Of a DNA stretch of 64,000 nucleotides, positions 1-28,950 are shown one piece after another. This DNA is from Stentor roeselii (lineage: Eukaryota; Ciliophora; Heterotrichea; Heterotrichida; Stentoridae). The notes beneath the pieces were generated by a model that saw nothing but the letters and a program-made list of their open reading frames with translations, did no database searches and had not been told where the DNA came from. The translations under genes were made by a program, and so were the position numbers. The stretch is taken from the NCBI GenBank assembly GCA_006503475.1, contig RSEH01000050.1, positions 1 to 64,000 on the forward strand, read 5' to 3'. Numbering within the stretch: position 1 is the first letter of the stretch; each line of letters begins with the position of its first letter.

Positions 1-2816
1 GATAAATACTTATTATTTTCCTTGAAGCTATTAATAATACGTGAAACAGTATCTCGACTTCCATCAAAAAAATCAATGATTTCAATATCTTTGATGTAAA
101 CATTTGGATTTCTCTTGATATATATCAAATACTCTCCAGTGTTCACTTCCTTAAAATTCATCCTTTCAATTTCAATTATCCTTTTATTAACTGTTCCAGT
201 ATATCTACTTACCTTAATTTCTCCACCCTCAGTGTCTATTTTTTTCAAGGTCCCATCAAAGATAATGGAAATGATTGAGGATTCAGCAGCTATAACTTCT
301 TTGAATTGCAAATTGGAAATTTTTACATTTTGAACAATACGTTGAGTAGAATACTTGATGAAGCTTATTGAAGTGTAGATTTTTTCGAATATCGAGTTTG
401 AGAGCTGAAAATGAAGCTGGTTGTAAGGAGGGTACCCACTTTTTTCATCTAAATAAATACTATTATAAATCAATGTAGATGTATCAATTTTTATTAATGA
501 ATTCACGTAAAGATTTGAAAAAAGACATTCATCTATAAGTACGGTTCCAAGGAAGTTAGTCAAACTTATCAACGCAGTACTAATCAAGGAGTCAGTACTG
601 CTATAAGCGACACTGAATATAAATTTGATATTAACAAGTTTTATAGAGTGAATATCGTTTATTTTAAGGAATCCACCAGTTTGTAAGTCATCTTTAATTT
701 CATAACCGTAGTTCATATCTTCAATCAACCCTTTGTTGAAACTAAAATTAATTTCATTACAGTTATCCAAACAAGAAGCATCTATAACAACTCCATTTCT
801 ACTTGGCTGCATTTTCAAAAATTTTACATTTTCTAATTCTAAGGTTGCAATAGACTTAATGAACGACTTAAATTGGTTTCGAAAAGACTGAAAAGTTACA
901 TTGATTAAACTTGCTTTTCCATCAAACACGAATAATTCAGCATTTCCATAATGACTACATTTATTTATTTGCTGATATATTTCATCGATAGTTTCATCAT
1001 TATAGAGCTGATTTTTATCATTGGCAATTATCGTTTCCTCACCATCGGAAAAATGATTTAAATAAAAGCAATAAAAGCATTCATCATAGTCAAGCAAGCA
1101 CCCGCTTTTTAATATATTTTCTCCATTAAATTCAACATTTTTTATAGTTATTCTTCCTTTCCAAGTTATCTTTAGTATATCGAAGACTTCCCCAATTTTG
1201 AAGCCTTCTGACCAATAAATTTTTGAAGGATTATCCGGATTTAAACTTTCGATGATAAGGTTATGTGAATTAGAAGAGGTTAAAGGACTGAAAGCATTGC
1301 TGCTTTTTATAATGACACTGCTATTGTATTTGTAAATAATATTTCCTGGAAGCAGTTTTATATGGGTGAATTTTTCAGATACACTGGCCAGAGCTTGATA
1401 AAAAGAAAGAAAAGGGTTTTCAAAGCTTCCATCTCCTGAAATTTGAGGCTCGATAGCTGAGTCGACATAGATCATATCAGGATTATTACCTGTTCCAATA
1501 TTGAACAAGGTGCACCATGTCATCTCTTTTGAATCGTTATTGAATAGATTAGTCAAGTTTTTATTTGGTTTAGTAGGCTCTGGGCAAGTCTCTAATTCTG
1601 ACTGGCATGCATCATTCACCATAAATCCTTCACAAATGACACAATTTTCATTAGTAGCCCTTAAACACTTCTCGATGTTATTATTACTCCGTCCCATGCA
1701 CCAGAGAGCTTCAGGTGAATAACAAGGAGAAGTCACTTCGCACTTTGGACCATCTGGCAAATCAAATAACTTTAAATCATCCTCACTGCAGCCATCTGGT
1801 AGTTGACTGACTTGGAAATAATTGAAATTTCCATAAATTAAAACGCTTAAAATTCTTGATCTTCTTATAAAATCATCATTTGAACTCTGGATGTTAAACC
1901 AGCAGCCACTAACATAACAACTCTCAGGTGTCTCACTTTGATTTATAAGAATAAATTCATTTTCTCTTATATATTGATAACAACCTGAAGCACATTCGCA
2001 GTCTGAGTCATCAAAGTTACAATCAGAATTAAAACATTCTAGGTTACAAGTTAGGTCTCCTTTCATATAACTAAAACATCATGGGGCACAATGACCGCAT
2101 TTTCCAAACTTAAATCGACATTCTTTGGTATTACATGGATCTGAAATACCTTTACAGCCCTCTCTCATTTCTTGATTAGTGCACCCTTCACTGCAAAGAC
2201 AATCATTTCCATCAAAGTTACATGAGTATGAGTTGCAAGATATTTGGCAGACACCATCATTAACTTGAGAATGTGAGCATCCTTTTTCACAATAATCACT
2301 GCAAGGGTTTCCTATAACACCATAGCACTTCTCATTTTTACACAAGTCATTTTCACAGGTTTCTTTAATTATATCAGACATTCCACAGCCTTCAACACAA
2401 ATATTGCATTCATTCAAATCATATTCACAGTATTTTGTATTACAAGGGCCGTCTTTATCACACTTCTTGTTCAGCAAGTCTTCTATAGTGCATCCTGGGC
2501 TGCAGAATCCGCATTTTCCTAAATCAAAAGCGCATTTTATATTGTTGCAGACTGGATCACATTGGTCGTTGTCTAAAAGTTCTTCTGTACAGCCAGTCTG
2601 CAAACAATAAAGAAAACAATCAGAAGCTGTGAAAATTTCTAAATTTGAGATATTTTCAGAAAAGACTGGAGAGTCAAAATTACAGAGGATATTATTGCAG
2701 GAGGTATCGCAATAATTATCACCTAGGTAAAATCGAGGACAGGACCCAAAGGGACATTCGAAGATTGAGTGTATTTGAAGCAGCCTTAGAAAATACAAGG
2801 TTAAACCTAGGAACAT
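1..2816 (-). pseudogene. LNR/beta-helix giant surface protein, copy A (in-frame stop, 3' end beyond window)
   Basis: This is the fourth member of the array, and about 938 codons are visible. It starts at ATG 2816, directly after TTATAA. A hydrophobic leader (MFLGLTLYFLRLLQIHS) is followed by tandem Lin-12/Notch-like Cys modules and then the start of the beta-helix (ISGDGSFENPFLSFYQA). I followed the frame to the window edge by matching it to paralog B, and the only interruption is TGA at 2079-2081. Paralog B has GGA (Gly) there, between CAS and CF. The downstream 690 codons remain alignable and in frame, so the break is a single substitution, not long decay. It may be a recent pseudogene, an allele-specific nonsense change, a read-through site or a sequence error. 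If translation stops there, the product is a secreted 245-residue LNR-only fragment. No 15-16 nt GT...AG intron can remove the TGA. Confidence 0.75.
2079..2081 (-). other. In-frame TGA replacing a conserved Gly codon
   Basis: The coding strand reads GCC CCA TGA TGT TTT. Paralog B has GCC TCA GGA TGT TTT. One G-to-T change explains the stop. The next codons (CFSYMKGDLTCN...) align with B without a gap. Confidence 0.9.
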
Positions 2817-3099
2817 TTATAATCATTGAATTTAGTGAATGGATTTAAATCTTTTGAAGTATGAAGAAGGGAGAAGAGGAATACTTTGAATAGAAGAATA
2901 TTTCAGATTTTGAAGACATTTTTTCAAGTTCAATTTTTGGAAATTTAATTTTTTAGATTAGAAGATTTTAGATCTTCAATTGATTATGGATGATTTGTGA
3001 AGTAACCAGTTTATCACTATTAGAATAGATTAGATGATGATAATTTAGTTCCCTTAGATTTATAATTTTGGTCCTTAGAATAAATCCAGTGATATTGAA

Positions 3100-3900
3100 T
3101 CCTCCTGAAACAGCTTAAAGTTTTATTTCCTGTGATGATAACTTAGTCATCTAGAGAAACAATTGAGATATTGATAGAATTTTCTGTTGTGATGATGCTG
3201 TCTTCGTTATCATAAACGTGAATCATTATCAAATTTTTAATCAACTAACCAGAGGCAACATTTTCAAGAAAGAACTCAGAATTATAAAAATTCTTTTCAT
3301 CTAAACGTCTGCTTTTTAAAGCTAAGTAAGCTGGAACACTTTCAATGTTATTCCCGCTTTCTGCTAAGTTTTTGATATGAAAACAGTCGAAATGATATTT
3401 ATTTTTAAGTCTAGCAATCGAAGCGCTTCTCAGTTGCTTCCAGCCTTATTTTCTACAATACTAGTTCGACCTTTTATGCTGAATTTGCATGTCCTGCAAT
3501 TCGGAGCCTGGAAAAACAATCCACCTCAATCAACTAAGGCTTCATTAACAGCAATGACAGAATTATTTAAAATGAGGCTCACTTACAAAGACAGCCCCTC
3601 CAATATATTGAAAATATTATTTTTAAATGAAGAGTTATGAATAATGACTGATAAAAATGATAAACTGGGATCAAAGTTATCGGCGAAAATGCGACTGCTT
3701 TTATTCCTTATATCCAGCTGATTTTCATTGAAAATTCTTTCAAACTAATACATAAAAGAGCCAAAACAAATAAATCGGGGCTTTCACTGTTTTTAACTCA
3801 TAATACCTCTAGACACTTCAATAGAAAATCTCTGGTCTTGAGATAAAGATTTTGTTTTAAAGAAAAGAGATATTTAGAAACATTATTAGAAAAATGCATA
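3100..3900 (-). pseudogene. Decayed fragment of an LNR/beta-helix paralog
   Basis: On the minus strand this stretch aligns base by base with copy B at roughly 7010-7740, which encodes the end of the beta-helix (about residues 1550-1796 of B). The clearest block is 3290-3375, which matches the DNA for B's segment ASVPAFLGLRNRRLGQ. A second block near 3440-3600 matches the part encoding the Cys pair before the NGGA repeat. Many stops and small indels break every frame, and no leader, LNR or membrane part is recognisable, so this is a non-functional relic. It lies between copy A's start and copy B's end. The boundaries are approximate, and similarity fades beyond about 3900. Confidence 0.8.
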
Positions 3901-4852
3901 ACTATGACTTAATTCCAGTGGATATAATTATTTCATTAATCAATGATGAAATTTTGAAATTAGAATCAATTAAAGTATGATTTTGTTAACTTATCAATTA
4001 TCTAATCAAATCTTGAGTAATATATATATTAACTTCCTAAAAAAATTAGTAAATATTTTCAACTTTCTTCAAAATTCCTAATGAATATGTTTATATATTA
4101 TTCTTTATTTCTATTTATTTTATGCACATTTTCAAGTGTTTCAACCAAATTATCCTTACAGCAGTTAAGATTCTTTTATAAAGTGTGAAAGATTAGAAAA
4201 TACATTACAGACAAGCTTTGAGGATGCCAATTAAAAGAAAGGTCAATAAAACTTCCTTCTGAAGTTTGTTTGCAAAGTGAGCAAGATTTTCAGTCATCAT
4301 AGTAAGAACTGACAAGTTCCAAATTAGAAAATTTAAATGAGGAAAAAGATTAGATTAAAGATGGATTATATTGATAATCCTCAGTTTTCTAGTTCCACCT
4401 AAAAAAATCAATAAAATTTCCTACTCTTAGGAAGTACTCGATAAGATTAAAAAAAATTCTTTTATACAAGAAATGGCTGATAAAACCTAATTTTCTCATT
4501 GGCTTCAAGTTTCACTAAATATTAAATATTCCATTCTTTTCATCATATTAATCAACTTACTCACATTGATATATTATCGACCTTCTAAAAGAAATTTAAA
4601 ATTTTCAGATTATTATTTCGTATTAGCAAGTCTCTGATACATATTAATCATTAATATTGATTATTTTTTTAAAAACTCAATGATTTCCCTGAAAACTTCA
4701 TTAAAAACATATAAATTCGACTAACTGAAGTGAAAATCTTAAATTTATATGAAAAGTCTTATATTGTCTTTGGAAATTTAATTTTTGATAAATTATGTAA
4801 CAAGCAAAAGTGAAAGAGCCCAGATCATAAATTTCTAATTAATGAAAACCTA
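3901..4852. other. AT-rich spacer between relic and copy B
   Basis: No intact gene is visible. A plus-strand string beginning at ATG 4081 gives a signal-peptide-like start, and about 4465-4720 gives hydrophobic stretches in another frame. Both are riddled with stops. It may be further decayed coding sequence or chance in AT-rich DNA. Confidence 0.4.
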
Positions 4853-7800
4853 TTAATTATCTTCACTTTCGCTTAGAATGAAACCATTATTATCATCGCT
4901 TTCAGTAATTATTCTAGCTATAGAATTCTCAAATTCATCTTCATCTTTTGAATTTTTACCTTTGTTATATATACTACTTGATGAACGAAGAATATCACTA
5001 GATGAACTATTTGATCTTGGATTACATTGAAAGTAACTATTCCTACTTTTATCTTCACTTTTCTCAACACTTGAAAGGGAATCATTGAGAAATTCATTTA
5101 AATTCTCTTCAGCTGATGAGCATTCAATTGAATAGTCTTCCTCAGGAATTTCCGATATTTGAAAGTTAGATGATTTTTTCTTGTTTCTGAAATGCTCATA
5201 CCTCGAATCTAAATGAGAAGTCCTTCTATTATCAATACTATCCTTAAAGACATAAAAAAACAGATGCTTCATTGACTGAACATTGAAATTACTAAAAGTT
5301 GTATCATCATAATTAATGAATGTGAATTTTCGAGCTCCATCAGATTCATCATAAAACGTTTTAGGAATTCCAATTTTTTCAGTATTGAAGTCTTCATCAA
5401 AAGCATCACCTTTTTTGCAGAAGTGTTTAAGATTTGGAATAATTTTTACAATAGCATCGGCAACAGCTAAACACATCCAGTAAAACCAAGTGAAAATAAA
5501 ATAACAATTTCCTAAAATAATCAACCCGAATAATATTAACTTGACAGCTTCTCCGATATCGCCAGTCAAGTAATAAAGTCCGCAATATATAGTTAATGTT
5601 GCTGTTATCAAGGCTTCCATTTCCATATGATTCAGTTCAATTGAGTTGTAAGGATGAAGACGATACTGGAGGAATATCGCTAATAATAAAACTATAGTCA
5701 CAGTTAGAGCTTGAACGTCATTTGAAACCTGACCTAAGAAGACAATTATGCAAATAATTATGATTTTTCTGTATATTATCATAAATTCCCAATAAAATTT
5801 AGAGGTTCTGTAGCCATTACATAAAAATCCATACATGACTTTGTTTTTGTCGTGGTGAAGATGCTTACGTTGCTTAATCATCCTAATTAAAACAAGGGAA
5901 GGGATTCCTAATGACCATATTATGATTGACGGAAGCGATAAATATAAAGAATATTTTATGTGAATTGTTGTCCAGCATTTTATTGCATAGTTGCTAGTCA
6001 AGTAACTACCTATCTGATCAAATTCTTGACATGAAAAGTTTGAAAACATGAATTTCACAAGATTTGGATGTATAAGAAAGTAAACAATTATAATTGTTAG
6101 TGGCAGTTCCCTTTTAAAAACATTTTTTGATCGATTGAGCCAACTAATCATAGCCCAAGCTAAACTAGATAAAAGTACAATAATGATAGGTAACATTGAA
6201 TACAGAATCATTTTCTTATAATAAATCCTTTCATAGAAATTTCCATCATTTTCTTCATAGCAGTCGACCGAAAAGGCCACTTCCGATGCAGATGCTGCAG
6301 TTTTTTGAGCTCCAAAAAGTTCAACAACATAATTAGGCCAAGCAAGATCAAATTCACTAGTCAAAAAAACAAGCTGCAAATAATTCGTAAAAATTTTAAT
6401 ATAAATCGAATGCTTCGCCTTAGCTGCAAACGCAGAGCTGATAGTAGTATTAACTAAAATTGCACTAATAATAAAAAAAGCAATGATAATAAAAATAAGT
6501 ATGAAATAGTTTAGTATATTTCCAGGGCACTTACTACATTTCCCATCACTTGCCTTAGTATATCCCTTATCACAGACATTGCAAGTGATTCCAGTATACC
6601 CTTTATAACACTCTGTTCGATAGTCCTTGTCATTCCCTGAGCACGACTCCTCAAAAGAACAACGATAAAGCACTTCAGATTCATTTGTAGTTCGGTAATA
6701 CCCTGGCTTCACCCAAATGGCAGACCCTCCAGGACAGATGCCTCCTTCAGGACAAGATTTACAAGAAGCTTCTGTTTTTATCAGGTATTTCCCTTCTGGA
6801 CAAACTAAACAAGCATCTGAATCACTCGCTTCGCCGAATTTGCAAGTTCTAAGCGTTGTGCTGATGGTGAAACTATTTCGGTATTCGAAGTCATCATTTT
6901 CTACATTTTTTTTTGATATTGAATTTGTTGTTGCATTAAAAGAAACTGAAGATCCTGGAAAGCCTCTTAAGATAAAACCTGTGATGTTAAATTTTCCAGA
7001 AATAGATTTAAAGGTTTTTTTTCCTGTAATTATCAAGTTTTCATCAGTGGAGACCAGGGAGATTTCGCTGGAGTTTTCAGTTGTGATGACATTGCCTTCA
7101 CTGTCATAGATGTAAAGTATTATCGAATAATTTACCATCTGGCCAGGAGCGATATTTTCAAGTGAGTAGTCAAAACCGTCTGAAGTCTTTTGACCTAGAC
7201 GTCTGTTTCTCAAGCCTAAGAAAGCAGGAACACTTGCAACATTACTTCCACTTTCTGCTGAGTTATTTGAAATATCTACACTAGAGTCAATATTTGGTTT
7301 GAAGTTCAACCATCTCAAAGCGCCTCCGTTCTTTCCAGCTTTATTTTCTTGAATACGAGTATTACCTGTTATGTTAAATTTGCAAGACCTGCAATTTGGA
7401 GACTGGTAAAAAATTCCTCCACCGTCTAATAATGCCTCGTTGTAGGAAATAAGAGAATTATTCACAACAAGGTTCATATCACTGACAACTATCGCACCTC
7501 CATTATTTTGACAAGAGTTGTTTTCAAAGGTCGAGTTATTAATAATCACTGTGCCGTTTAAAGAACCTCCTTCAAAGTAAACTGATCCAAATTTTCTTCC
7601 TTTAATTCCGGAAATCCAGGTATTTTTTATGGTGACTTCTTTCAAACCAATGCACGAAACTGCTGAAATTGATAATTCAAGGTTTTTTATATTCACCTGG
7701 TCAATTAATAAAGAGTTTCCAGAAACTTCTAAAGAAAAAGTCTCTTTTGTGGAAAGAAGTTTTGATTCAAAAAAACTTGAGTTGAGTATAGAGTAGTTAT

Positions 7801-10800
7801 TTTCAGAAAGGTGTAAATCTGAACCTGATTTCGCGGAATTGCCTTCGAAATAACTGTTGGAAATAGTTGTTTTTGTTCTTGTGGAATATAAAGCTCCTCC
7901 ATTTTCAAGGGATGTGTTGTTTTTAAAGGTGCATCCAGTTATTACTAGTCTTTGACACTCGACTACTGCTATGGCTCCACCGTGTACCTTTGAATTTCCA
8001 TTCAGGAATCGTGAATCGATTGCTGTGAGGTATCCGTATAATCCTGAATAGACTAAAGGGCTATAAGGTTCGCCGAGATCTCGTGAAAAAGTAGTGTTTA
8101 TTAGGTATAAGTCAGTTCCAAATGCAACGATTCCGGGAAATGCAGAAAATCCTGCAATATTATTGATGTAGAATGAGTCTATTAAGTAAAAATTTGTGAT
8201 TGAAAGTTCAACTAGCTTACTTCCGATTGACTTATTATCTTTAATAAGTGTTCTCAGAATCACATTTTTTTCATTTCCTAATGAATCAATTTCAAATAAT
8301 GTACACCCCGACCCTTGATAAGTATTATTAAAAATATTTGAATCATTAATTTGAATAAAACTTTCACCAGTCACACTAAAAAGAGCTGCAAAGTTATCAT
8401 AAATATTACACCAAGAACACAAAAAGAACCCTTGACTCTGAACATTAATAAAAGACTCTTTCAAATTACTAAAATCTCCATTATTGATCACAAGTCCTGC
8501 ATTAACTATTTCCGCAGCGACAGCCATAAAACTAACATCAATATCCTCAATCCTCAAAGTAACAGCATTAATTTTCATTGTTTTTCCAAGTTGATTATCA
8601 ATATAAGATGTGATATTTTTAACAAAAATTCTATAAAATCTTAATGTAACAACTTCAATATTTTTACCAGTTATCTGAAACACTTGATCAACTCTTGTAC
8701 TATGAATAACTCTGAAGTGACTCAACTCAAGCTGGTCACCTTCCCCTTGATACTCTGCAAGTACTCCCAAAAAGTCAATATTATCATTAAAAGTGAATTC
8801 AACATCGAAAAGTTTAAGAATTCCACCAGAATGAGAATCGTAAATCATTGAAATTGAATCATAATTGAAACTTCCTCGAATCTCTGAAATTAAAGAGTCT
8901 TTTATTTTTATTTTTTTTGATACATAGAGAAAAATTCCATGAGCAGCTGAAACTCTTTGAAAAGTCACGTTTTTTATGTAGATGTTGTGTGATTGAGATC
9001 CACTTAATGAGTCTATCATGAAAAGACCTGAGTTGCCGTAAACGTAGATGTCTTCTAAGGTTGATGATGTTATGTTTATTGTAGACTCTGTTGAACCTGA
9101 TGCTTGAAACATCAAAAATCCGCAATCACCGTAGTAGTTGTTTATGTTTTTTAAGATTGAGTCTATTATTGTGAATGAGGTAAAATCGATAATTGTTATT
9201 GGTGAAGATATGTTTACGTTTAATTGACTTACCTTGAAATCTTGGATGAAAATTTGATCGCATTTGTAGAATTCTATTAAGGTGCCGTCTGGGTTGTATA
9301 CAAAATCGATTGATGTGTTCTGAATATTAATTTGGACTTTAATCTCATTGAATAGTAAAATACATCCAAAAGTACATGCAGAGTAAATATTCAAAAATAT
9401 AGTAGAAATAAGTGTCAAGTTTCCAGTTATTTTCTCAAATATCAATCCAGAAGAAGAGTACCTATCATAACAATCATTCTCCTCACTATAAACCAAGTTG
9501 CTTTCAACATTAAAACATTCTTCTATTTTGATACTCCCAGAGCACTTCAAATCTCCAATCTGGTCAGTCCTCGGAACAATAGTAAAGTACTTTTTTTCCC
9601 TTCTAAACTCATCAACAATAACCGAAACAGAGTCCCTACTTCCATCATAAAGATAAGCAACTTTGATATCTTTAAGGTAAACATTAGGATTTCTCTTAAC
9701 AAGTATGACAAATTCCCCAGTACTAACTCCAAAAAACCTCAATTCTTCCATCTCAATAATCCTTTTATTAATCGATGCAGTAACTTCATTCACCTTAATA
9801 ATTTCTCCAAAAGTATCAATTTTCTTTAAAATCCCATCAAAAATCAAAGAAATAATAGAAGATCCTGCAGCACAAACAGAAAAAAACTCAACATTAAAAA
9901 TCTTCACATTTTGAGTAGTCTGCTGAGTAAAATATTTGATGAAGTTAGTTGAAGTATAAACATTTTTAAATTTCGAATTTGATAATTGAAAATGAAGTTG
10001 GTTATAAGCAACACTGTTACCTTCATCATCTTTTACCAGATTTTTATATACTAAAGAAGAGGTGTCAATTGAGATCAAAGTATTTACATAAAGATTCAAA
10101 AACAAGCAGTCATCGATCAAGACACTTCCGAGAAAGTTCGTCACACTTATAAAAGAAGTACTTAAAAATGAACTTGGACTGGAATAAGCGATGTTGAACT
10201 GAAACTTTACTTGAAATAATTTGATTGAATGAATATCGTTTATTTTAAGAAAACCACCTGATTTAAGATCTTCGTTTATTTCGTAACCGTAGGTCATGTC
10301 TTCGACATTCCCTTTATTAAAAGAAAAATTGATGCTTTCGCAGCTGCTGATGCAAGACACGTCGATCACGACTCCTTTGCCACTTGGTTGGACTTTAAAA
10401 AAATTCACATTTTCTAGTTCTAAGGAAGAAAATGACTTGATCAGTGACTTGAACTTGTTTCTAAATGACTGAAAAGTCACATTGATTAAAGTGGCTGGTC
10501 CATGAAAAACGAAAAATTCAGAAGATTCGTAAATTTCACATTTTTTCATCTGGGTGAAAAGGTCTAAAGACAGGTCTATCGAGTATTCTTGGTACTTGTC
10601 ATTCACTACGTGAATTTCAAAATATTCCCCGTAGTACATGGTAAAAAAAGGGCAATAAAGACATTCTTCATTTCCAAGTTCACATCCTTTTTTTAATATG
10701 TTTTCTCCATGAAATTCAATATTTTTTATTATTATTCTTCCTTTCCAAGAAATCTTCAACAGGTCAGTTTCAGATCCAAAGGAAAAAGCTTCTGACCAAT

Positions 10801-19400: not shown

Positions 19401-20516
19401 ATCCGAGTAACAAGGCGAAGAGATATCACATTTCGGTCCATCAGGCATATCAAACAATTTCATATCAACTTCGCTACAACCCTCTGGAATCTTATCCAAA
19501 TCCAAAAAAGAGTAATTTTGATAAATCAAACTACTTAAAATCCTCGATCTTCTAATAAAGTCATCATTTGAATCCTGGATGTTAAACCAACAGTCAGGAA
19601 CAAAGCAGCTTTGTTCATACCGACTATCACTTAAACGTACGAATTCATTTCCTATATAAATCATGAAGCAGTCAAAAGCACAACTACATTCAGGTTCCTC
19701 TTCAAGCCAATCAGGCATACGATTATTATTCAAACATTCAGGATTGCACCTCGAATTCGATATCATATCATAGAAACACCCTGGCGAGAAGTACCCACAT
19801 TTTCGATTTTTATATTCGCAATGGAAATTATTGCAAGGGTCAGAAAGTCCTTTACATTCTGTTTCAAGTTCTTCTTCAGTACACCCAGGACTACAAATAC
19901 AGTCATTTCCATCAAAGTCGCAAGTTTCACCACTACACAAAAATTCACAGATTCCGTTATTCACCTGAGAATGTAAACATCCAAAGAAGCAATAATCACT
20001 GCAAGGGTTTCCTTTTATATAAGCACACATTTGATGCCTGCAGATTTCATTTTCACAGGTATCTTTAATAACATCTGACAATCCACAGCCCTCAACACAA
20101 ATGTTACATTCACGTAAGTCGTTTATACATTGCTCGTTATCGCAAGGACTGCCCTTATCGCACTTCTTGTTATACAGAAGCTCTGATGTGCATCCAGAAG
20201 AGCATGTCCCGCAAAGACCTAAGTCAAAAGCGCATTGTGGACTGTTGCAGATTTCATCACACTCGTCGTTTTCCAGAAGATCTTCTGTGCACCCTGAATA
20301 TAAACAGGAAACAAAACAGTCTGAAACTCGGAAAATTTCTAAATTTGAGATATTCTCGGAAAAGACGGGAGAATCGAAATTGCAGAGGATGTTGTTGCAT
20401 TCGTAGTTGCAGTGAGAATTTCCTAAGTATCTTCGTTCACATGAAATCATTGGGCAGTCAAAGTTGGAACTTGCTTGGACTAGACTGGTTAAAGAATATG
20501 TGAGGTGTAAAAACAT
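13416..20516 (-). CDS. Giant LNR / beta-helix / Cys-rich / polytopic surface protein, copy C, short tail (2366 aa)
   Basis: It has the same order of parts as copy B: leader (1-16), LNR-like modules (about 20-320), beta-helix starting at SGEGSIENPFLSLYQA (about 465-1750), Cys-rich segment with CPDGGICPGG (about 1875-1965) and membrane helices (about 1972-2332). It ends soon after the last helix. B and D continue from a shared TFYDE-x-DGAR motif into long tails, whereas C reads TFDDERYGNF and stops at TAA. The sequence beyond that stop shows no remnant of a tail, so the loss is not a recent point mutation. The last LNR modules are also less regular (CLNNNRMPDWLEEEPECSC). This copy therefore probably differs from B and D in cytosolic signalling or anchoring. 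The start is ATG 20516 after CAATAAA. Confidence 0.9.
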   Translation of the reverse strand: MFLHLTYSLTSLVQASSNFDCPMISCERRYLGNSHCNYECNNILCNFDSPVFSENISNLEIFRVSDCFVSCLYSGCTEDLLENDECDEICNSPQCAFDLGLCGTCSSGCTSELLYNKKCDKGSPCDNEQCINDLRECNICVEGCGLSDVIKDTCENEICRHQMCAYIKGNPCSDYCFFGCLHSQVNNGICEFLCSGETCDFDGNDCICSPGCTEEELETECKGLSDPCNNFHCEYKNRKCGYFSPGCFYDMISNSRCNPECLNNNRMPDWLEEEPECSCAFDCFMIYIGNEFVRLSDSRYEQSCFVPDCWFNIQDSNDDFIRRSRILSSLIYQNYSFLDLDKIPEGCSEVDMKLFDMPDGPKCDISSPCYSDKALWCMGRSNNYIPNCLRATNTTCVICEGFMINNTCFNNLSSCPEDLDYNSNLTELFSSSSEKVVWCTKRFIGTGNNSYTIYVGPSDQPQVSGEGSIENPFLSLYQAFANISREFNEIKLFPGVFVYKYDSKVKIKGSDIFNPLFLTQTKHLIIEGLNSENRSEVYWSEGFTYNSKFDILKIISSKTIIIKNIIFRGDKILKDGCELDSDFCFYCPFFTRFRGDGLTDLDSIFYRNETFLPFLSDKNKLYEQSDFFDPGSQMSKCEKYKNIDLFIFNGETKIINVTFQSFRNQFNSLIKVTSTIELNNVDFIKLQPSSLGVVIDATCSNNCEKFNFHYIKGIVEDLNFGYEINNFIKTGGFLKIKDINSIEIIDINFKFNVAYSQQDASMITTFISIINFIGTLMIDSCSFSNLYVNNLIHIDTSSLKYNNLQMNSKRESLAYNQLHFQLSNSKFENIYSSNYFIRSSTQMTTQNVRIFNVEFKTIRAARSSIISLNFDGLLMKMDTDGEEVTINQETGIIKKRTVEIENIYFFEVKTGEFVIYIKRNPNVLLKNINIVKMSDGNQDSVSVIIDEFKENGKYLSITPRNDQVGDLICSGASKLEECYNLDVLSVYNEDIYCEYDHAPSGFIFYKISGSVNLNSSYFYQIISNSLYANLLSFSDIYGPLSIYNTSINDVNNTGGGLVEFLKCDSILLKDFKAKNVINWASPVIYVSDFSQYTMINSNIENIKNFYSGSGFLKLVSLGTRESTINILNSRFFDLKSTGGSGLFTIDPLGSFQSQNIFIKNVTFQKVSASQSVFLYTSRKLFINQSLISEIRGSQNFNSTSMIYDSHQKGILNFSDVEFKNNKDIHFPGIVAEYEGKGNFLELNNFRVFNTSKAEQVFQFTGTKIDEVFISFNDVFMQNVSSIVEGKLAKSIKLNDLTLIASRLRISHMSLAGKLSNAGLEVEEGDFQGLSETLINSQSQGFFKCSFCKIHENYGNLFIISSGSYIILNNSEVFKNFHRSQFMMIEIDSVGVKNNLVEKTVFKNNHLMDGKLFKLTKTNLFLVDSEFIDNFSEESSYSEIVTYETDLLIKNSTFSHSLEQCGSFIYSSLLGNLTIFNSSFFSGCSQQGGGAITIENCENSEIDGCTFKNNSSHEEGGAIKSLSTFTKITNSFFQGNSAKSGSDLSLSGSSYSIVNSNFYQSKVFSTNQQFSIQASGDFFTLDQVRIINPDPLISALSCLSFNQVNISRSLISGVSGNEFGACFFDGSFSHGTLIIDKSTFEQNFCNKSGAGFFLSDMNLILLDSLISFNEAGVDGGGIFIQAPECKTCTFDIKGNTKMMKNKAKRNGGGIRWLNFKPNIDSTVEIFNNSASYGNDIAGVPSFIGIKTRMLEKTDHQFDYFIDNVPPGQIMRNLAKFYLFDVEGNLITTDNSSRISLLSLDKRVIIAGESFIQASSGIFDFSGFILKASPGSVVFLNSTIDSISKENVRNDNNDYKNNFIFKVQLRNCTKGEATDNDTCLVCSQGYYSIQTSDFCKPCPDGGICPGGSDIWVKPGFYRTSNESEVLYKCPFQDSCLGNLQGFYSQCLKGYSGITCSVCQGAYTKSCDGKCRECPDQLWNIFLIIFIFGGFFGLTAVLVYCVLRSEFGRNRMNLVFIRIFMNYLQIVYVTTEFELLLPNFVGRLMGGQKNGIFFERFLVSFDCYQRKSAGSDYEDIFYKNIIFRSIVPIIIFFISGFTWAILSRFNELKQKFRREVPLTISVMYILIHPSLTKSILSNFSCEEFDKIGSFLTVNYAIKCSSEVFLKYFSYITLPSLILWSFGIPFLTLTLIIKKRKMLDSENHQVLFGFLCTGYKTSKFYWQFLMISRNIVIICIFVLFPKVSIEFKTLSVALVLIFSIYLQNQADPFETNQLNKFEMKVIITALFANYCRIFYLKEEIGDIYRLVFFFMYILGNSYFVLSWIYWICVVLSIKNTFLRLIFKQDDCEQSSITEKAEFPNTFDDERYGNF

Positions 20517-21501: not shown

Positions 21502-24500
21502 CTAATCTTTTTCCTTAGTAAAATTCTCTACTTTTAAACGTGTCAGTTCATCCTGTGATGACTGCAAACCTCGCTCACTTTGCATATGAACTTCAGAATG
21601 GGAGTTTAGTCGACTTTTCTTTTCATTTGCATCATCAAAGCTTGTCTGAAATGTATTTTCTAATCTTTCACACCTATTAAAATAATCTTGACTGCCATAA
21701 GAGTAATTTTGTTGAAATACTGAAGAGTTTTCTCTAAAGCTAATCAGATTTCCGTTATTCTCAATATTTCGCTCTTTGAATTTGTTTTTAGGATTATCTA
21801 CATTTTTTAATTCGTTTTTAAATACTAGGAAGTAAAGATGTTTCATTGATTTGATGTTAAAATTTTGAGTCAAAGTCTCATTTAAATGAATAAAGGTGCA
21901 CTTGCGAGCTCCATCATCCTCATCATAAAACGTTCCTGGTATTGAAATCTTCTCAGAATTAAAATCTTCACTAAAAGAATCTCCTCTACTGAAGAGATAT
22001 TTTAATTTTGGACTAATTTTTACTATAATATCGACAATAGCTCTACTCATCCAGTACAGCCAACTAATCACAAAATAAAAATTCACTAAAACAATCAAAA
22101 TAAAAAGTAGTAACTTGACTTCTTCTCCAATATCATTTGTTAAATAGTAAAGTCCACAGAAAATTGTCAAAAATGCTATTATCAGAGCTTCTAGTTCCAA
22201 ATAATTAAGTTCAAATGAATTGAAAGGATTAAGCTGATATTGTAACAAGAGAGCAAATATTAAAATTATAGTCACACAAAGAGCTTGAACTTGAAAAGAG
22301 ACCTGAGCTAAGAACACAATGATGCAGATAATAAAGATTTTTCTATATATTATAATAAATTCCCAGTAGAATATCGAGGACTTGTAACCATTGCATAAAA
22401 ACCCAAAAATCACTCTGTTATTTTCCTGGTAGAGAACATTCCTCTTTTTTATTATTTTGATGAGAATTACTGTTGGTGTTCCGAATGTCCAAATTATGAT
22501 AGATGGTAGTGAAACCAGCAGAGAATACTTTTCATGTATCTGTGTCCAACATTTAATAGCGATATTTTGATTTAAGTAGGAGCCGATCTGATCAAAGTAT
22601 TTACAAGAATAATTAGAAAGCATGAACTTTGCAATATTCAAATGTATCATAAAGAAAACAATAATAATAGTCAGTGGCAACTCTCTACTTAAAACACTAT
22701 ATGATTTAACCAACCAGCTAATAGCCCCCCAAGCGATAAAAGAAGCAAAAACAATAAAAACAGGCAACAATGAATAAAGAATCATTTTTTTATAGTAAAC
22801 TTTCTCATAAAAATCTTCTTCTGTACTTTCAGTGCATTCAGCTGAAAACAATGAATCAAATGCAGATGCTAAAAACCTATGAGTTCCAAAAAACTGAACA
22901 ACATTCTCAGGCCATGAAAGGTTGAACTCAGTGACCAAAAACAATAATTGCAAGTAATTTGTAAATATTTTAATGTAAATCGAATGCTTGACCTTCCTGA
23001 CAAAGGCTGACCTGATGATGCTCTTGACAAAAACAGCGATAAAAACAACAAAACCAACAACAATAAAGAATAAAATGAAATTATTCACTGTTTGACTAGG
23101 ACATTCCCTGCATTTTCCATCATTAGATTTGAAAAATCCTTGTTGACAAGCAGCACAGGTGATTCCAGTAAATCCTTTCAAACATTTAGTCCGAAAGTCT
23201 TGATCACTGCCTAAACAAGTTCCCTTCACCGGACACTTGTAAAGGACTTCTGACATGTTTGTAGTTCGGTAAAAGCCTGGCTTGACCAAAATGACTGAGC
23301 CTCCAGGACAGATGCCTCCATCTGGGCAGTTCTTGCATGAGTTTTCAGTCTTTATCAGATACTTCCCCTGGGGACAGACTGCGCAGGTGTCCTCTTCTGT
23401 TGCTTCACCGAATGTGCAGGTTCTGAGATGGACTTCAATTGTTAAGAAGTTTTCATAGCTGGTCTCGTCATTTTCAATACTTTGAGATATCGAGTCTGTT
23501 GTCATGTTCAAGTAAACTACTGACCCTGGCGCTGATCTTAATGAAAAGCCGCTGATGTTAAAAATTCCAGAAAATGCGAAAAATGATTTTTTTCCTGTGA
23601 TTATCAGATTCTCATCATTTGTGACTAGGTCCAACTCACTTGAATCATCAGTGGCGACCCTTTCTCCATAGCTGTCATGAAGACTGATGATAATTGAATC
23701 ATTGATTAACTGACCAGGAGGAATATTTTGAAGAAAATATTGAGAATTATTCACTTTTTCATTAAATCTGCTGAAAACAGCTAAAAAAGCTGGAACACTC
23801 GCCAAGTCTTTTCCATATTCAGCTGAATTGTTAAAAAACACGACAGAGGGCTCAAGGTTAGGTTTACTGTTCAACCAGCGAAAGGCTCCTCCATTTCTTT
23901 CAGCTCTGTTATTAGAAAGAACACTTGCTCCTGAGATGTTAAATCGACAGGCTTCACAATCAAGAGCTTGAAGGAAAAACGCTCCACCGTCAAGGGCAGC
24001 AGAGTTGAAATCAATCACAGAGTCACTCACTTCAAGATTCATATCATTTAAAAAAACTGCTCCTCCACTTTTATTTGAAAAATTGTTTAAAAATCTTGAG
24101 TTTTTCATTAAAACTGTTCCTTTTGTACCTCCTCCTTCGAAGTAAGTCGCTCCGTAGTCTAATCCAGAAATATTCATGAAGAGACTTTCATTTATTGTGA
24201 CGCTTTTCATGTTGATACATGAAAGACCTGACACTGGAAATTCCAGATCTTTCATTGAGATTTGTTCGATTTTTAAAGAATTTCCTGAAGTGAAGATTGA
24301 AAACTGCTGGCTTTTTGATAAGGCTTCGGTCTTTGCGAAATTTGAGTTGGTGATAAAAGACTCTTGTTCTGAAAAATGTAAATCTGAACCTGTTAGTGCC
24401 TTGTTACCTGAAAAGATGCTGTTTGAAACTGTTGTAAATGTTTTTCGTGAAAGAATCGCCCCTCCTTGTAAAAGAGAAGTGTTATTTTTAAAGACACTGT

Positions 24501-27500
24501 TACTTACTGAGAAAATTTTACAGTTTTCCACTGAAAGAGCTCCTGCTTGTATTTGTGAGAAACCATTGAAAAAGTAAGAGTTGTTTATACTAAGATTTCC
24601 AAGAGAAGTGAAATAAAGAAAGGGCCCTGCAGATGTTTCCGAGTGTGAAAAATTAGAATTTTCCACAATTAAATCAGTTTCCAAGGCCCTTATCCCGAAA
24701 GATTCACGATCAGCTGTATTATTAAAGTACTCCAACCCATAAATATCAAGGTTAGTACTCGAAAGTTCAACAACACTACTTCCAATCACCTTATTATCCC
24801 TCAAAACTGATGAAAAAATAAGATTTCTCTCACTTCCCACCTTGTCGATTTCAATCAAAGTTGGCTTGTCTCCTTTATTAGAGTTTCTGAAAATCTCAGA
24901 AAATCTAAGCTGAACAAAACTTGCTCCACTTGCCCTGATCAAAGTCCCGAAGTTTTCAAAAATCTTGCAAAAAAAACATTTAAAAACTCCGAGACTCTGA
25001 GATTTCAAAAAATCTCCTCTTAAATGATGAAAAGTTCCATTTTGAGTATCAAGGACAGCATTAGTTAGTTCAGCGAAAGAACTCATAAAACTTACTTCAA
25101 ATTGAAAGGAATTCAAAGTCGCACCAGTTATTTTCAAAGTTTTTGCAAGTTCATTTTCTAGATATGAAGAAATATTTTTCACTGAAACTTGTTTGAAAAT
25201 TATAAAAGTTTTTTGAATGTCTTTTCCTGTTATTAAAAACACGGTTTCTGCTTTGGTACTGTCTGAAACTTGGAAATTTTCAAGTTCTAGCTGCTTTCCG
25301 GTACCTTGGTACTCGGCGATGATACCTGGGAAGTCAATAAGGGAGTTATTTTTGAACTTTATATTTGAAAATCGCAGTAAGCCACCTGAATGACCGTCAA
25401 AAATCATTGAAGTTGATTCAAAGTTGTTACTTCCTTGAACATCTGAGATGAAAGAGTCGTTTATTACTAGTTTTTTAGTAATGAAAAGAAAAATACTGTA
25501 TGAAGATGAAATTCTTGTGAATGTGAGGTTTTTAATGTAGATGTTATGTCCTTGCACGCCTCCTAAAGAATCGATTAAAAGAATACCTGAGTCTCCTTTG
25601 GAGTACACATCTTTTATATTAAAGTTTTCAATTATAATGGTGGACTGCTTTGTTCCTGAAGCTGTCAGTTTCAAAAAGCCACAGTCTCCGTAGTAGTTTT
25701 TTATATCATTCGAGGAAACGTTGATCAATGAGAATGATTCAAATGCAGAGGCAAGTAAAGGTGAAGCGTAGTTAACTGCCACTTTAGATACTTTCAGATC
25801 AGTGATGCGAATATTCAAAGCCTTTGAGAACTCAACAAAACTTCCTGCTAAGTTCGAAACATTTGAAAGGTTTAAAGTCTCAATTTTCACTTGGTCAATT
25901 TGGTTGAATAAAAGAAGACTGCCAAAATCACTATTCGAAGAAATTGCGACAAAGGTTGTAGATGTGAGATTTAAACCTCCTTGAATTTTCTCGAAAATGA
26001 TTCCTAAAGTAGTATTCGAATCACAAGAAGTGTTTTGAATGTAAGTGTTATTCAAACTCACCCTGTAACACTCGACTAGTTTTAAGGTACCTAAGCAATT
26101 TAAGTCTTGGATAAGGTCTGACCTTGGAATGATAGATAAATATTTACGCATTTTCGGAAAGCTGTCAATGATCAGCCTTACCATTTCACGTCCTCCATCA
26201 TGAAGGTTGTAAAATTTTATGTCTTTTAACTCAACATTCGGGTTACTCTGAATAAAAATCGCGAATTCTCCTGCACTGACACGATTAAATGAAATTTTAC
26301 TAAGTTCTACTGTTCTTTTATTCACGAATTTTACTTGTTGATCAAAAATAAGATATTCTCCAATCTTGTCAATTTTCTTCAAGTTTCCATTGAAAATCAA
26401 AGAAATGATCGAATTTCCAGCTGAAGCGATTGAATCAAAGTGTACATTGAAAATTCTTATATTATGAGTAATCTGAGTAAAGTATCGAATAAATCTAGAA
26501 GATGAGTAAATATTTTCAAATCTTGAATTTAACAATTGAAAATGCAACAGGTTGTAAGCCTCTGAATCCTTGTATTCCAATGACGAGGTATCGATGTCAA
26601 GCAAAGAGTTCACATAAAGACTCTTAAATTCACAGTCATCTATCAGAATGGTCCCCAGAAAGTCCTTCACTCTTATCAAGGCTGTGTTGAATTCGTGCTT
26701 CGGGTTGCTGTAGGCGACGCTTAAGGAAAATTTAATTCCTGTGAGTTTTATTGAGTAGAAGTTTTCAACCTTTAAAAATCCTCCTGTTTTTATGAAATCG
26801 TTTATTTCGTAGCCAGCACCCAAATCTTCTACAAGTCCTTTTGTGTAGATGAATTTGGCACTTGAACACTGTTTTGAACATGAAGCTTCAATCACGACTC
26901 CTTCCCTGCCTGGTTGCATTTCCAAGAAATTTACATTTTCTAGTGTCAGGTTTGAATCAGACTTTATGAAATACTTGAACTGGTTACGAAAAGACTTGAA
27001 AGTCACATTTGTTAAATACGTGTTTCCATTAAAATTAAAAAAAAATTCAAATTCATAAAAATTGCATATTAAACATTGAGTTAAACATTTCGAAAATAGG
27101 GTTTCTTGATCATTTTCATTTTCGGCTAAATAAATTTCATTTTTGTCATTAGCTGCTATCCATCCAATTGATTGATCCGAAAAGACTCTGAAGTTCGGAC
27201 AGTAAAAACAATCTTGATTAGGTAAATCACAGTCCTCTGACAGTATTCTTTCTCCGTTGAATATAATATTTTTGATTAAAATCTGTCCAGTCCAAGAAAT
27301 CTTCAATAGAATATCAAAAGAATCTAAATCAAAAATTTTCGACCAGTAAACAATCGAAGGTCGAGAAGGGTCTAAGCTTTCGATAGTAAGAAATTGATAT
27401 TCAGAGGATTTTAGCGGATTATAATAACTTCTCCCTTCTTTTAGTATAACATTACTGTCGAACACATAAAAGAACTCTCCAGGTAGCAGTTTGATATCAG

Positions 27501-28950
27501 TATAATTCAAAGAGACAAATGCAAAAGCTTGAAAAAGTGAAAGGAAAGGACTACCCAAGCTTCCATCACCAGTGACTTGCGGAGGATCACTTGATTCCAC
27601 ATAGATCACTTGTGGGTTATTACTGGTCCCGATGTTCGATTTTGTACACCAAATAAAGTTACTGGAGCTAGAAAATAATGAGGTTAAGTTCAGATTTGTT
27701 GTTAAGTCTGAAGGACATTCATTCGCATCTGGTTTGCGTTCACTGCGATACATATAACCTTCACATATCACGCAACTTTCATTAGTTGATCTTAAACATT
27801 TTTCAATGTTGTTTTTGCTTCGACCCATGCACCAGAGTGCAGCAGGTGAATAACAAGCTGATGTTGTTTCACATTTTTCTCCATCTAAAGAGTCGTAAAG
27901 TCTTAAGTCTGTCTCGCTGCAACCTTCTGGAAGGTTTTTTAGAGAAAAAAAGGAATAATTTCCATATATTAAAGTACTGAGAATTCGTGATCTTCTAATG
28001 AAATTGTCGGTTGAGTTTTGGATGTTAAACCAGCAGTCAGCTACATAACAATCTTGCTCATTATAATCATTTGGGTAAAGTCTGATAAATTCGTTTCCGA
28101 ATTGATACTGGCTGCAGCCACTCGAACACACACAGTCATCATAATCGAACTCGCAGGCCTCGGTAAAGCATTCAATCTCACAAATGTTATTATTTCTCAT
28201 ATGGTAAAAGCATCCTGATCCGCAGTATCCACACATTCCTCTTTTATAATTACACTCTATAGTGCTACAAGGGTCAGAAGGCCCTTCACAATCTTTATCA
28301 AGTTCAGTCATTCGACATCCGGGGCTGCATATACAATCATCCCCATCATGATTACACAATGTCGACCATAAGCAGAAAACATCACAAACTCCATTATCAA
28401 CATCTGAATACTTACAATACAGATCACAATGTTCAGAGCAAGGATTTCCTACTACATTTCGACAATACAAATCCCTGCAAATATCATTTTCACATGTTTC
28501 TTTTTCAATATCTTTTTTCCTACATCCATTCACACAAATATTGCATTCAAGTAAGTCATAATCGCAATAATACGTATTACAAAGGCCATGCTCATCACAT
28601 TTTTCGTTAAAAAGTTCTTCTAAAGTGCATCCAGATTCACAGATCCCGCAAAGTCCTAAGTCAAATCCACAAACTGCATTGTTGCAGGCCTCATCACATT
28701 CATTGTTTCCCAAGAGTTCAAGTGAACATTCAGTCTTCAAACATGAGCCTAGACAGTCGGACATAACGAAAATCTCTAAGTTTGAATTTCCATCAGAAGG
28801 TACTGATGAGTCGAAGTTGCAGAGAAGATTGTTGCATTTCAAGTCGCAAATATAGTTTCCTCGGGTTTCTATATTGCAATTTCGAAAAGGACATTCAAAT
28901 TCTGAGATTGCTCCAGGTAGAGATAATACAAAGAAGATGTGCAAGACCAT
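21502..28950 (-). CDS. Giant LNR / beta-helix / Cys-rich / polytopic surface protein, copy D (2482 aa)
   Basis: This is the third intact member. It has a leader, LNR-like modules (about 18-320), the linker with CMGRSKNNIEKC, a beta-helix starting at TGDGSLGSPFLSLFQA (about 458-1720), a GCC2/GCC3-type segment with CPDGGICPGG (about 1847-1947), 8-9 membrane helices (about 1950-2303) and a polar tail of about 175 residues. The tail begins with the same motif as copy B (EKI-x-IP-x-TFYDE-x-DGARK, then SMKHL-x-F-x-VFK) but then diverges and lacks B's acidic Ser runs. Membrane-region motifs shared by all copies include an IKIFTNYLQ-like helix, a REVPLTI or RELPLTI start of one helix, and a GFLC-x-GY segment. 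It starts at ATG 28950 after CTAATAAA and ends with TAG. Confidence 0.9.
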   Translation of the reverse strand: MVLHIFFVLSLPGAISEFECPFRNCNIETRGNYICDLKCNNLLCNFDSSVPSDGNSNLEIFVMSDCLGSCLKTECSLELLGNNECDEACNNAVCGFDLGLCGICESGCTLEELFNEKCDEHGLCNTYYCDYDLLECNICVNGCRKKDIEKETCENDICRDLYCRNVVGNPCSEHCDLYCKYSDVDNGVCDVFCLWSTLCNHDGDDCICSPGCRMTELDKDCEGPSDPCSTIECNYKRGMCGYCGSGCFYHMRNNNICEIECFTEACEFDYDDCVCSSGCSQYQFGNEFIRLYPNDYNEQDCYVADCWFNIQNSTDNFIRRSRILSTLIYGNYSFFSLKNLPEGCSETDLRLYDSLDGEKCETTSACYSPAALWCMGRSKNNIEKCLRSTNESCVICEGYMYRSERKPDANECPSDLTTNLNLTSLFSSSSNFIWCTKSNIGTSNNPQVIYVESSDPPQVTGDGSLGSPFLSLFQAFAFVSLNYTDIKLLPGEFFYVFDSNVILKEGRSYYNPLKSSEYQFLTIESLDPSRPSIVYWSKIFDLDSFDILLKISWTGQILIKNIIFNGERILSEDCDLPNQDCFYCPNFRVFSDQSIGWIAANDKNEIYLAENENDQETLFSKCLTQCLICNFYEFEFFFNFNGNTYLTNVTFKSFRNQFKYFIKSDSNLTLENVNFLEMQPGREGVVIEASCSKQCSSAKFIYTKGLVEDLGAGYEINDFIKTGGFLKVENFYSIKLTGIKFSLSVAYSNPKHEFNTALIRVKDFLGTILIDDCEFKSLYVNSLLDIDTSSLEYKDSEAYNLLHFQLLNSRFENIYSSSRFIRYFTQITHNIRIFNVHFDSIASAGNSIISLIFNGNLKKIDKIGEYLIFDQQVKFVNKRTVELSKISFNRVSAGEFAIFIQSNPNVELKDIKFYNLHDGGREMVRLIIDSFPKMRKYLSIIPRSDLIQDLNCLGTLKLVECYRVSLNNTYIQNTSCDSNTTLGIIFEKIQGGLNLTSTTFVAISSNSDFGSLLLFNQIDQVKIETLNLSNVSNLAGSFVEFSKALNIRITDLKVSKVAVNYASPLLASAFESFSLINVSSNDIKNYYGDCGFLKLTASGTKQSTIIIENFNIKDVYSKGDSGILLIDSLGGVQGHNIYIKNLTFTRISSSYSIFLFITKKLVINDSFISDVQGSNNFESTSMIFDGHSGGLLRFSNIKFKNNSLIDFPGIIAEYQGTGKQLELENFQVSDSTKAETVFLITGKDIQKTFIIFKQVSVKNISSYLENELAKTLKITGATLNSFQFEVSFMSSFAELTNAVLDTQNGTFHHLRGDFLKSQSLGVFKCFFCKIFENFGTLIRASGASFVQLRFSEIFRNSNKGDKPTLIEIDKVGSERNLIFSSVLRDNKVIGSSVVELSSTNLDIYGLEYFNNTADRESFGIRALETDLIVENSNFSHSETSAGPFLYFTSLGNLSINNSYFFNGFSQIQAGALSVENCKIFSVSNSVFKNNTSLLQGGAILSRKTFTTVSNSIFSGNKALTGSDLHFSEQESFITNSNFAKTEALSKSQQFSIFTSGNSLKIEQISMKDLEFPVSGLSCINMKSVTINESLFMNISGLDYGATYFEGGGTKGTVLMKNSRFLNNFSNKSGGAVFLNDMNLEVSDSVIDFNSAALDGGAFFLQALDCEACRFNISGASVLSNNRAERNGGAFRWLNSKPNLEPSVVFFNNSAEYGKDLASVPAFLAVFSRFNEKVNNSQYFLQNIPPGQLINDSIIISLHDSYGERVATDDSSELDLVTNDENLIITGKKSFFAFSGIFNISGFSLRSAPGSVVYLNMTTDSISQSIENDETSYENFLTIEVHLRTCTFGEATEEDTCAVCPQGKYLIKTENSCKNCPDGGICPGGSVILVKPGFYRTTNMSEVLYKCPVKGTCLGSDQDFRTKCLKGFTGITCAACQQGFFKSNDGKCRECPSQTVNNFILFFIVVGFVVFIAVFVKSIIRSAFVRKVKHSIYIKIFTNYLQLLFLVTEFNLSWPENVVQFFGTHRFLASAFDSLFSAECTESTEEDFYEKVYYKKMILYSLLPVFIVFASFIAWGAISWLVKSYSVLSRELPLTIIIVFFMIHLNIAKFMLSNYSCKYFDQIGSYLNQNIAIKCWTQIHEKYSLLVSLPSIIIWTFGTPTVILIKIIKKRNVLYQENNRVIFGFLCNGYKSSIFYWEFIIIYRKIFIICIIVFLAQVSFQVQALCVTIILIFALLLQYQLNPFNSFELNYLELEALIIAFLTIFCGLYYLTNDIGEEVKLLLFILIVLVNFYFVISWLYWMSRAIVDIIVKISPKLKYLFSRGDSFSEDFNSEKISIPGTFYDEDDGARKCTFIHLNETLTQNFNIKSMKHLYFLVFKNELKNVDNPKNKFKERNIENNGNLISFRENSSVFQQNYSYGSQDYFNRCERLENTFQTSFDDANEKKSRLNSHSEVHMQSERGLQSSQDELTRLKVENFTKEKD

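Follow-up and report, generated by a model that had tools for sequence, protein, structure and literature searches.

Membrane proteins of the PF06011 type, to which the fungal TRP-like proteins Pkd2 and Flc belong, carry a small N-terminal ML-like lipid-binding domain. For fission yeast Pkd2, the passages of PMC11277609 on which we draw name a "putative extracellular lipid-binding domain" and describe two essential parts, the extracellular domain and the nine-helix membrane domain, together with a tail controlling the distribution of the protein, and passage of Ca2+ on membrane stretch. The Chlamydomonas PKD2 channel is attached to extracellular mastigonemes, in complexes that are given a structural role in the part of PMC10846610 consulted. 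Here, a 64,000-nucleotide stretch of ciliate DNA was analyzed (contig RSEH01000050.1, positions 1-64,000; referred to as the window), the left 29 kb of which is occupied by an array of genes for very large membrane proteins. Our working reading, plausible but tentative, is that the array belongs to a large family of ciliate receptor-channels of the tethered type, in which contact or a ligand might be coupled to a TRP-like domain. To our knowledge, heterotrich ciliates sense touch, prey and chemicals with one cell, and the receptors for this are largely open. The family provides about 45 loci of uniform plan as concrete receptor candidates.

The array and its genomic family

The array contained three complete open reading frames (ORFs), named B, C and D, and a fourth, A, cut by the window edge. 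All were on the minus strand and head to tail, as stated in a preliminary description of this DNA. Only the 5' part of copy A was present (3-2816), comprising the LNR modules and the first part of the rod before the gene ran off the left edge. Copy B (4853-12397; P0001) encoded 2514 amino acids (aa) and copy D (21502-28950; P0003) 2482 aa, both complete, and copy C (13416-20516; P0002) encoded 2366 aa with most of the tail absent. Protein identity among copies A-D was 47-63%. The module order was LNR modules, a rod of about 1300 residues, a Cys-rich neck, nine membrane helices and a tail, which agrees with the order previously read. In copy B, the modules were assigned on the minus strand to 11498-12340 (LNR or Cys-rich modules, about residues 20-300, Pfam scan), 7148-11080 (rod, about residues 440-1750), 6524-6853 (neck, residues 1849-1958), 5423-6523 (nine-helix membrane domain) and 4856-5422 (tail, residues 2326-2514, putatively cytosolic). 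The stop codon of copy C followed the peptide FDDERYGNF, i.e. the start of the tail. No tail sequence was seen by eye in three frames over 415 bases beyond this stop, and none was found by tblastn between C and B, so that the earlier claim of one copy without a tail was borne out.

The genome assembly comprised 44,391,514 bases in 522 contigs and is smaller than the 83-Mb genome of S. coeruleus. A search with the neck and membrane domain of copy B gave at least 65 matches (best 80 of 81 candidates scored); all family counts are lower bounds. By hand count, at least 45 loci on 32 contigs were open, i.e. without a stop and spanning at least query positions 10-459. The close group consisted of 25 members, B included, with at least 40% identity to B and open frames mostly of 2230-2600 aa; the short-frame exceptions were C170 (730 aa) and C26 (1408 aa). 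Fifteen intermediate members had 32-38% identity and open frames of 778-951 aa, but 2611 aa in C59. Full reading of one of them, L026, gave four frames, as short introns would give; the split may be due to such introns, which is not proven. Five divergent members (C220, C47, C441, C38 and C40:190850) had 26-32% identity. Twenty rows were excluded, among them C332, C102, C22, C119 and C290:8915, which carried stops (10/12 rows), and the partial rows C515:159152 (at a contig end), C316, C63:114483 and the weak C101, C179, C130, C312 and C447. A search with the whole of D gave at least 20 matches (best 19 of 211 candidates scored), and a search of the genome for the LNR family at least 126 (best 150 of 291 candidates scored). 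The order LNR, rod, neck and nine helices was seen in close members of full length as well as in intermediate and divergent members. For further analysis, 24 of the 45 loci were aligned over the neck and membrane domain (17 close, 2 intermediate and 5 divergent members; alignment A2), and 15 close members were aligned as whole chains (alignment A3).

The preliminary description had not recognized this combination of domains as a described family. Among the open-access papers listed, none described an LNR/rod/neck/nine-helix architecture, as judged from titles and the starts of abstracts, and the passages of PMC12716839 and PMC2770060 that were examined did not describe it. The parts themselves are of known kinds, with a DUF7630-like neck and, in some members, a PF06011-like membrane domain; what is undescribed, as far as this literature allows testing, is how they are combined and how large the family is.

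Module structure and constraint on the modules

LNR modules (PF00066) were matched in all 15 full-length members in the Pfam scan, and in L025 they were recognized by eye, without a Pfam match. The first 450 residues of the whole-chain members held 46-60 cysteines, and the C59 member had up to 15 LNR stretches. When the 15-member profile was compared with solved structures, the best match was the LNR region of GNPTAB (E 1.9e-10). A hydrophobic N-terminal segment exceeded the limit in B, but not in C or D.

For the rod, a beta-helix of about 1300 residues had been proposed. At E<=0.01, Chlam_PMP repeats were matched in 7/15 and Beta_helix repeats in 4/15 members. A 26-residue hydropathy period was found for residues 1000-1740 (0.136 versus a 95% shuffle limit of 0.092). 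The period did not exceed shuffles at 440-1000, nor over the whole rod at 440-1740 (0.065 versus a limit of 0.072). A beta-helix is thus supported by the Pfam repeats and the period for roughly the C-terminal half of the rod (about 1000-1740), and residues 440-1000 may continue the same fold. Searches of solved structures with the two rod halves gave nothing or one chance-level match, and with the whole-chain profile Rhombotarget A was matched very weakly (E 0.056). The rod begins with the consensus G-x-G-S-x-x-x-P-F followed by I-K-L-x-P-G, which resembles the start of pectate-lyase-type helices.

The neck of copy B matched DUF7630 (E 0.0008) and DUF7631 (E 0.0035), both under the curated cut-off. 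DUF7630 was matched at E<=0.1 in 21/24 neck and membrane members; among the members scanned singly, only L024 and L026 were over the curated cut-off of 27 bits, with 17.4-26.6 bits for the window copies B, C and D. In whole-chain Pfam scans, it was not listed for the window copies. DUF7631 was matched at E<=0.1 in 16/24 members, the best match (20.6 bits) being under its cut-off. The neck also showed very weak similarity to NCD3G and, among solved structures, a weak likeness to the EGF modules of Notch1 (best E 0.003).

Such an ectodomain could also be imagined on non-channel multi-pass receptors for adhesion or signaling, which would bind surfaces, prey or partners while the nine helices serve as an anchor or couple through the tail, like adhesion G protein-coupled receptors (GPCRs) in role but not in fold. 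The size of the ectodomain, with 30-45 N-glycosylation sequons per member within the first 1950 residues (15 members), would suit this role, as would the Chlam_PMP and Beta_helix repeats of the rod, which occur in adhesins too, and the faint NCD3G similarity of the neck. The membrane part, however, has nine helices and not seven, no GPCR family was matched in Pfam scans of the members, and some members carry a PF06011 signal. We regard such receptors as a rather doubtful explanation.

Synonymous and nonsynonymous changes were compared at the gene and domain level, as had been proposed. Whole copies were compared for seven of the 105 possible pairs, and saturated cells were left out. The ratio of nonsynonymous to synonymous change (omega) was 0.19-0.28 in six full-length pairs, with B-D near saturation (synonymous divergence, dS, 2.13); the seventh pair, C402-C40, was saturated. 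By domain, omega was 0.06-0.19 for the neck, 0.12-0.20 for the membrane domain without copy C (0.38 for B versus C) and 0.16-0.35 for the rod. For the LNR modules, it was 0.12-0.19 in four of the five measurable pairs and 0.44 for D versus C132:17681. The tail was less constrained (0.31-0.60), as were some ectodomain stretches (up to 0.44). Selection was mainly purifying, and omega gave no indication of diversifying selection across whole genes.

Whole-gene purifying selection and the many related copies would also be expected of structural coat or oral or pellicular surface proteins, in which packed rods are held by a membrane anchor and copies serve dosage. The structural role assigned to the Chlamydomonas PKD2-mastigoneme complexes in the part of PMC10846610 consulted points the same way. 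On the other hand, the 24-member alignment of neck and membrane domain held 26 invariant columns, several of them polar or aromatic in the membrane part, which would exceed the needs of an anchor, and the window copies differ at about half of their residues, which is ill-suited to pure dosage. A role as coat or surface-structure proteins appears unlikely.

Membrane domain and proposed function

Eight or nine membrane helices had been counted before. The hydropathy profile of the 24 members gave nine hydrophobic peaks, two of them weak (1.19 and 1.24 versus 1.83-2.91), so that nine was kept and eight was not; a stricter limit applied to single sequences gave fewer clear membrane segments. The Cys-rich ectodomain and the odd number of helices suggest that the N terminus is outside and the C terminus inside.

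PF06011 was matched at E<=0.1 in three of the 24 members: L025 (1e-6), L024 (2.2e-5) and L022 (0.003). A further member outside the 24, L033, matched at E 4.8e-5. The likeness of copy B to PF06011 is drawn only through such divergent paralogs. A profile of the three window copies found L025 at E 5e-71, which joins the window copies to the PF06011-matching members. In the whole genome, PF06011 had 31 matches at E<=1. When their coordinates were overlapped by hand with those of the family, 12 fell inside family neck and membrane matches, all under the cut-off (C47, C85, three in C515, C316, C220, C38, C178, C146, C53:109587 and C215). The other 19 were outside the family; three of these were over the cut-off (C254, C86 and C53:91014) and belonged to another protein type. 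Four proteins of this genome (L029-L032; G000:C254, C53, C64 and C86) combined Cys repeats with a PF06011-like membrane domain at the C terminus, those of C254, C86 and C53 reaching the curated cut-off. In a single hhalign comparison, the 24 members were aligned with four other TRP-like proteins of the genome at probability 50 and E 1.6e-4; the alignment was colinear over 150 columns, and the reversed control gave probability 0.04 and E 0.86. From these data, the membrane domain is probably a distant homolog of the fungal TRP-like Pkd2/Flc domain PF06011, with the likeness limited to the C-terminal helices, and, with a near miss in one divergent member, the family is classed only as a probable distant relative. 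Among the genome matches of Ion_trans (PF00520) listed, out of 162, none overlapped a family locus, and Ion_trans was not matched in the member Pfam scans. Relatives of the neck and membrane domain were found neither in viral contigs nor in prokaryote genome contigs or plasmids.

In the proposed mechanism, the rod would stand off the cell surface as an antenna, and contact, pull or a ligand would act on the LNR/rod part. Through the disulfide-rich neck, the signal would reach membrane helix 1 of the nine-helix domain, which is TRP-like (Pkd2/Flc-like) and would open or modulate a path for cations or produce a signal equivalent to it; location or coupling would be set by the tail. With many paralogs, a single cell would have a range of sensors for contact or chemicals. 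The anatomy can be read from the sequence, whereas we infer the surface location, the antenna rod, the coupling through the neck, the TRP-like output and channel function. Strong constraint on the neck and membrane domain, as measured by omega, speaks for a receptor-channel, and fission yeast Pkd2 and the Chlamydomonas PKD2-mastigoneme complex lend it support by analogy. A more elaborate version is rather less secure and should be seen as speculative: dozens of giant rod-tethered TRP-like channels, differing in their LNR/beta-helix antennae, would form a combinatorial sense of touch and contact chemistry with gating coupled through the neck.

Several observations weigh against the receptor-channel. 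PF06011 was unmatched at E<=0.1 in 21/24 members, including all window copies and close members. All family matches were under the curated cut-off (best 28.3 versus 28.5 bits) and covered only the C-terminal part of the profile, and the hhalign probability was just 50. JAMP, another membrane protein family, was matched in 2/24 members (best 6.9e-5), on the last neck module and the first helix. No solved structure matched the membrane domain. Constraint is not peculiar to the membrane part, since omega for the LNR modules was as low as for the membrane domain. In addition, PF06011-type proteins include the Flc flavin carriers (abstract of PMC9600462), so homology does not prove a channel.

The same abstract reports a TRP-type domain in Flc1 and links this protein to flavin transport and calcium homeostasis (PMC9600462), which would fit transporters or trafficking factors of the Flc type in internal membranes, with an unusual luminal domain. 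A huge ectodomain rich in cysteines and sequons would be better suited to the cell surface, and we consider an internal role highly improbable.

Duplication, decay and comparison with known systems

Birth-and-death evolution had been suggested for the array from its tandem copies, one nonsense copy, one tail-less copy and one relic. Two relics were found, not one, both between A and B; a reversed control of the search gave no matches. The first was the C-terminal end of a rod with several stops (3073-3870, minus strand, E 4e-43), and the second a D-like tail with 58-67% identity (4136-4350, plus strand, opposite to the array, E 7e-12). The nonsense change of copy A was an in-frame TGA at 2079-2081 (minus strand), where six aligned copies have a Gly codon (GGA in five, GGG in one); beyond it the frame stayed open for 692 codons up to the window edge. 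An intron was rejected as explanation, as the TGA was covered by no 15- or 16-nt GT..AG stretch. Of the copies compared, the closest to A was G000:C132:9949 (dS 0.20), and the omega of 0.45 for this comparison fits relaxed constraint in a nonsense copy. The neck and membrane branch of the tail-less copy C was the longest in its group (0.90 versus 0.18-0.22 for B and two C132 copies). Together with stops in copies at C102, C22, C119 and C332 and a related cluster with flank on contig C132, these data uphold birth and death, with new copies arising through tandem and segmental duplication and others being lost to nonsense changes and decay. The ectodomain and the neck and membrane trees concurred on the main groups, with several inner nodes poorly supported; because the trees agree, there was no sign of wholesale domain swapping.

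Contig C132 of the same genome bears a related cluster and a related flank. Among the listed matches, the closest to D was G000:C132:17681 (77% identity, dS 0.47), and dS between B and two C132 copies was 1.03-1.21. The C132 cluster was oriented -,+,-, as against -,-,-,- in the window; thus it, too, has one oppositely oriented copy, which may be compared with the plus-strand tail relic. The differing dS values and orientation favor paralogous clusters, and C132 was rejected as the other allele. Beside the window cluster, DNA at 29793-30590 was common with C132:26001-26810 (71% identity); it appeared decayed and held no ORF of at least 150 aa. DNA at 31408-31729 was common with C132:27618-27945 (77%) and contained a fragment labeled by eye as a Rab-like GTPase. 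The matched interval (C132:26001-27945, 71-77%) adjoins the C132 cluster, and the flank matches are probably the footprint of a duplication common to both. Cluster and flank were probably duplicated together. With dS differing between the pairs (0.20 and 0.47), a single event without conversion does not fit; conversion or separate events may account for the difference.

Tandem and segmental duplication, relics and a nonsense copy are also what would be seen in variable surface antigens, expressed singly and diversifying in self/non-self, predator or prey recognition. The rod of B versus D was more diverged than neck and membrane, as such antigens would predict, but not so in the C pairs. Against antigens, omega of whole copies was 0.19-0.28 and stayed below 1 wherever it could be calculated for a domain and pair, and the ectodomain and membrane trees were concordant. 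Neither was a subtelomeric antigen array upheld. Several copies lie near contig ends, yet these ends look like assembly breaks, because no telomere repeats were seen by eye at ten of them (seven starts and three ends, 120-150 bases each) and contigs C356, C274 and C290 end inside copies. We rate variable antigens as very unlikely; recognition of self or prey is one option among several.

The 31 window ORFs counted ended in TAA (15), TAG (9) and TGA (7, one being that of copy A); the count is of ORFs rather than gene models, with the nonsense copy A and intron-terminated exons among them, and two antisense ORFs of 33 were excluded. A general code with TGA as Trp was rejected, as the 31 ORFs held 152 TGG, no inner TGA and 7 terminal TGA. 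Two tandem transporter-like genes, assigned by eye to the major facilitator superfamily (50499-51788 and 52168-53460), each had one 15-nt GT..AG intron (GTGAGGTTTATTTAG and GTAAGGTTTAAGTAG) with an A at position 10, and removal gave the same junction peptide in both. A count of GTA..TAG spacings for 15-nt introns was uninformative. According to passages of PMC9505925, Stentor uses the standard code, and its introns measure 15-16 nt and mostly carry the branch-point A at position 10; the 15-nt introns and the standard code of the window suggest a Stentor-like heterotrich. Elsewhere in the window, a predicted protein at 44078-45598 had repeated NFYGVTPP motifs. In the genome, PF07699 gave at least 138 matches (best 150 of 319 candidates), many in open frames of 850-970 aa; L027 (G000:C179:183500-186500) combined Kelch repeats with Ephrin_rec_like, and since it alone was read, a single family behind the PF07699 matches is no more than a guess. 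In G000:C466, C506 and C58, Ephrin_rec_like modules lay in open frames of 4100-4200 aa.

Known systems share single parts with the array. Notch, GNPTAB and PAPP-A have LNR modules; those of the array are N-terminal instead of near the membrane, come without ankyrin repeats and are joined to nine helices instead of one, and whole-chain Pfam scans of family members matched no EGF or Ank families. Chlamydial polymorphic membrane proteins and other beta-helix proteins have PMP-type or Beta_helix repeats like those in part of the rod, whereas the array has a eukaryotic multi-pass membrane domain and, in Pfam scans, no autotransporter match. Class C GPCRs likewise place a Cys-rich neck between a large ectodomain and the membrane helices, and the neck of the array matches NCD3G very weakly; a class C GPCR base was rejected on the helix count of nine and the lack of a 7tm match in family scans. 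The C254, C53, C64 and C86 proteins share the C-terminal PF06011 similarity, but have Furin-like Cys repeats (by eye) in place of LNR and rod, and the family profile did not pick them up at E<=10. The fungal Pkd2/Flc proteins have nine helices, with a large N-terminal region before and a tail after them, and some family members show weak, repeated similarity to them in the last helices. They differ in the ectodomain, which in the array is LNR, rod and neck of up to about 1950 residues and not a small lipid-binding domain, for which no ML-like Pfam match was obtained in the scanned members. Should the membrane domain prove to be a TRP-like channel, one chain would unite a nine-helix TRP-like domain with a rod-like ectodomain of very large size, and this would bear on whether fungal Pkd2/Flc belong to an older, wider class of receptor-channels.

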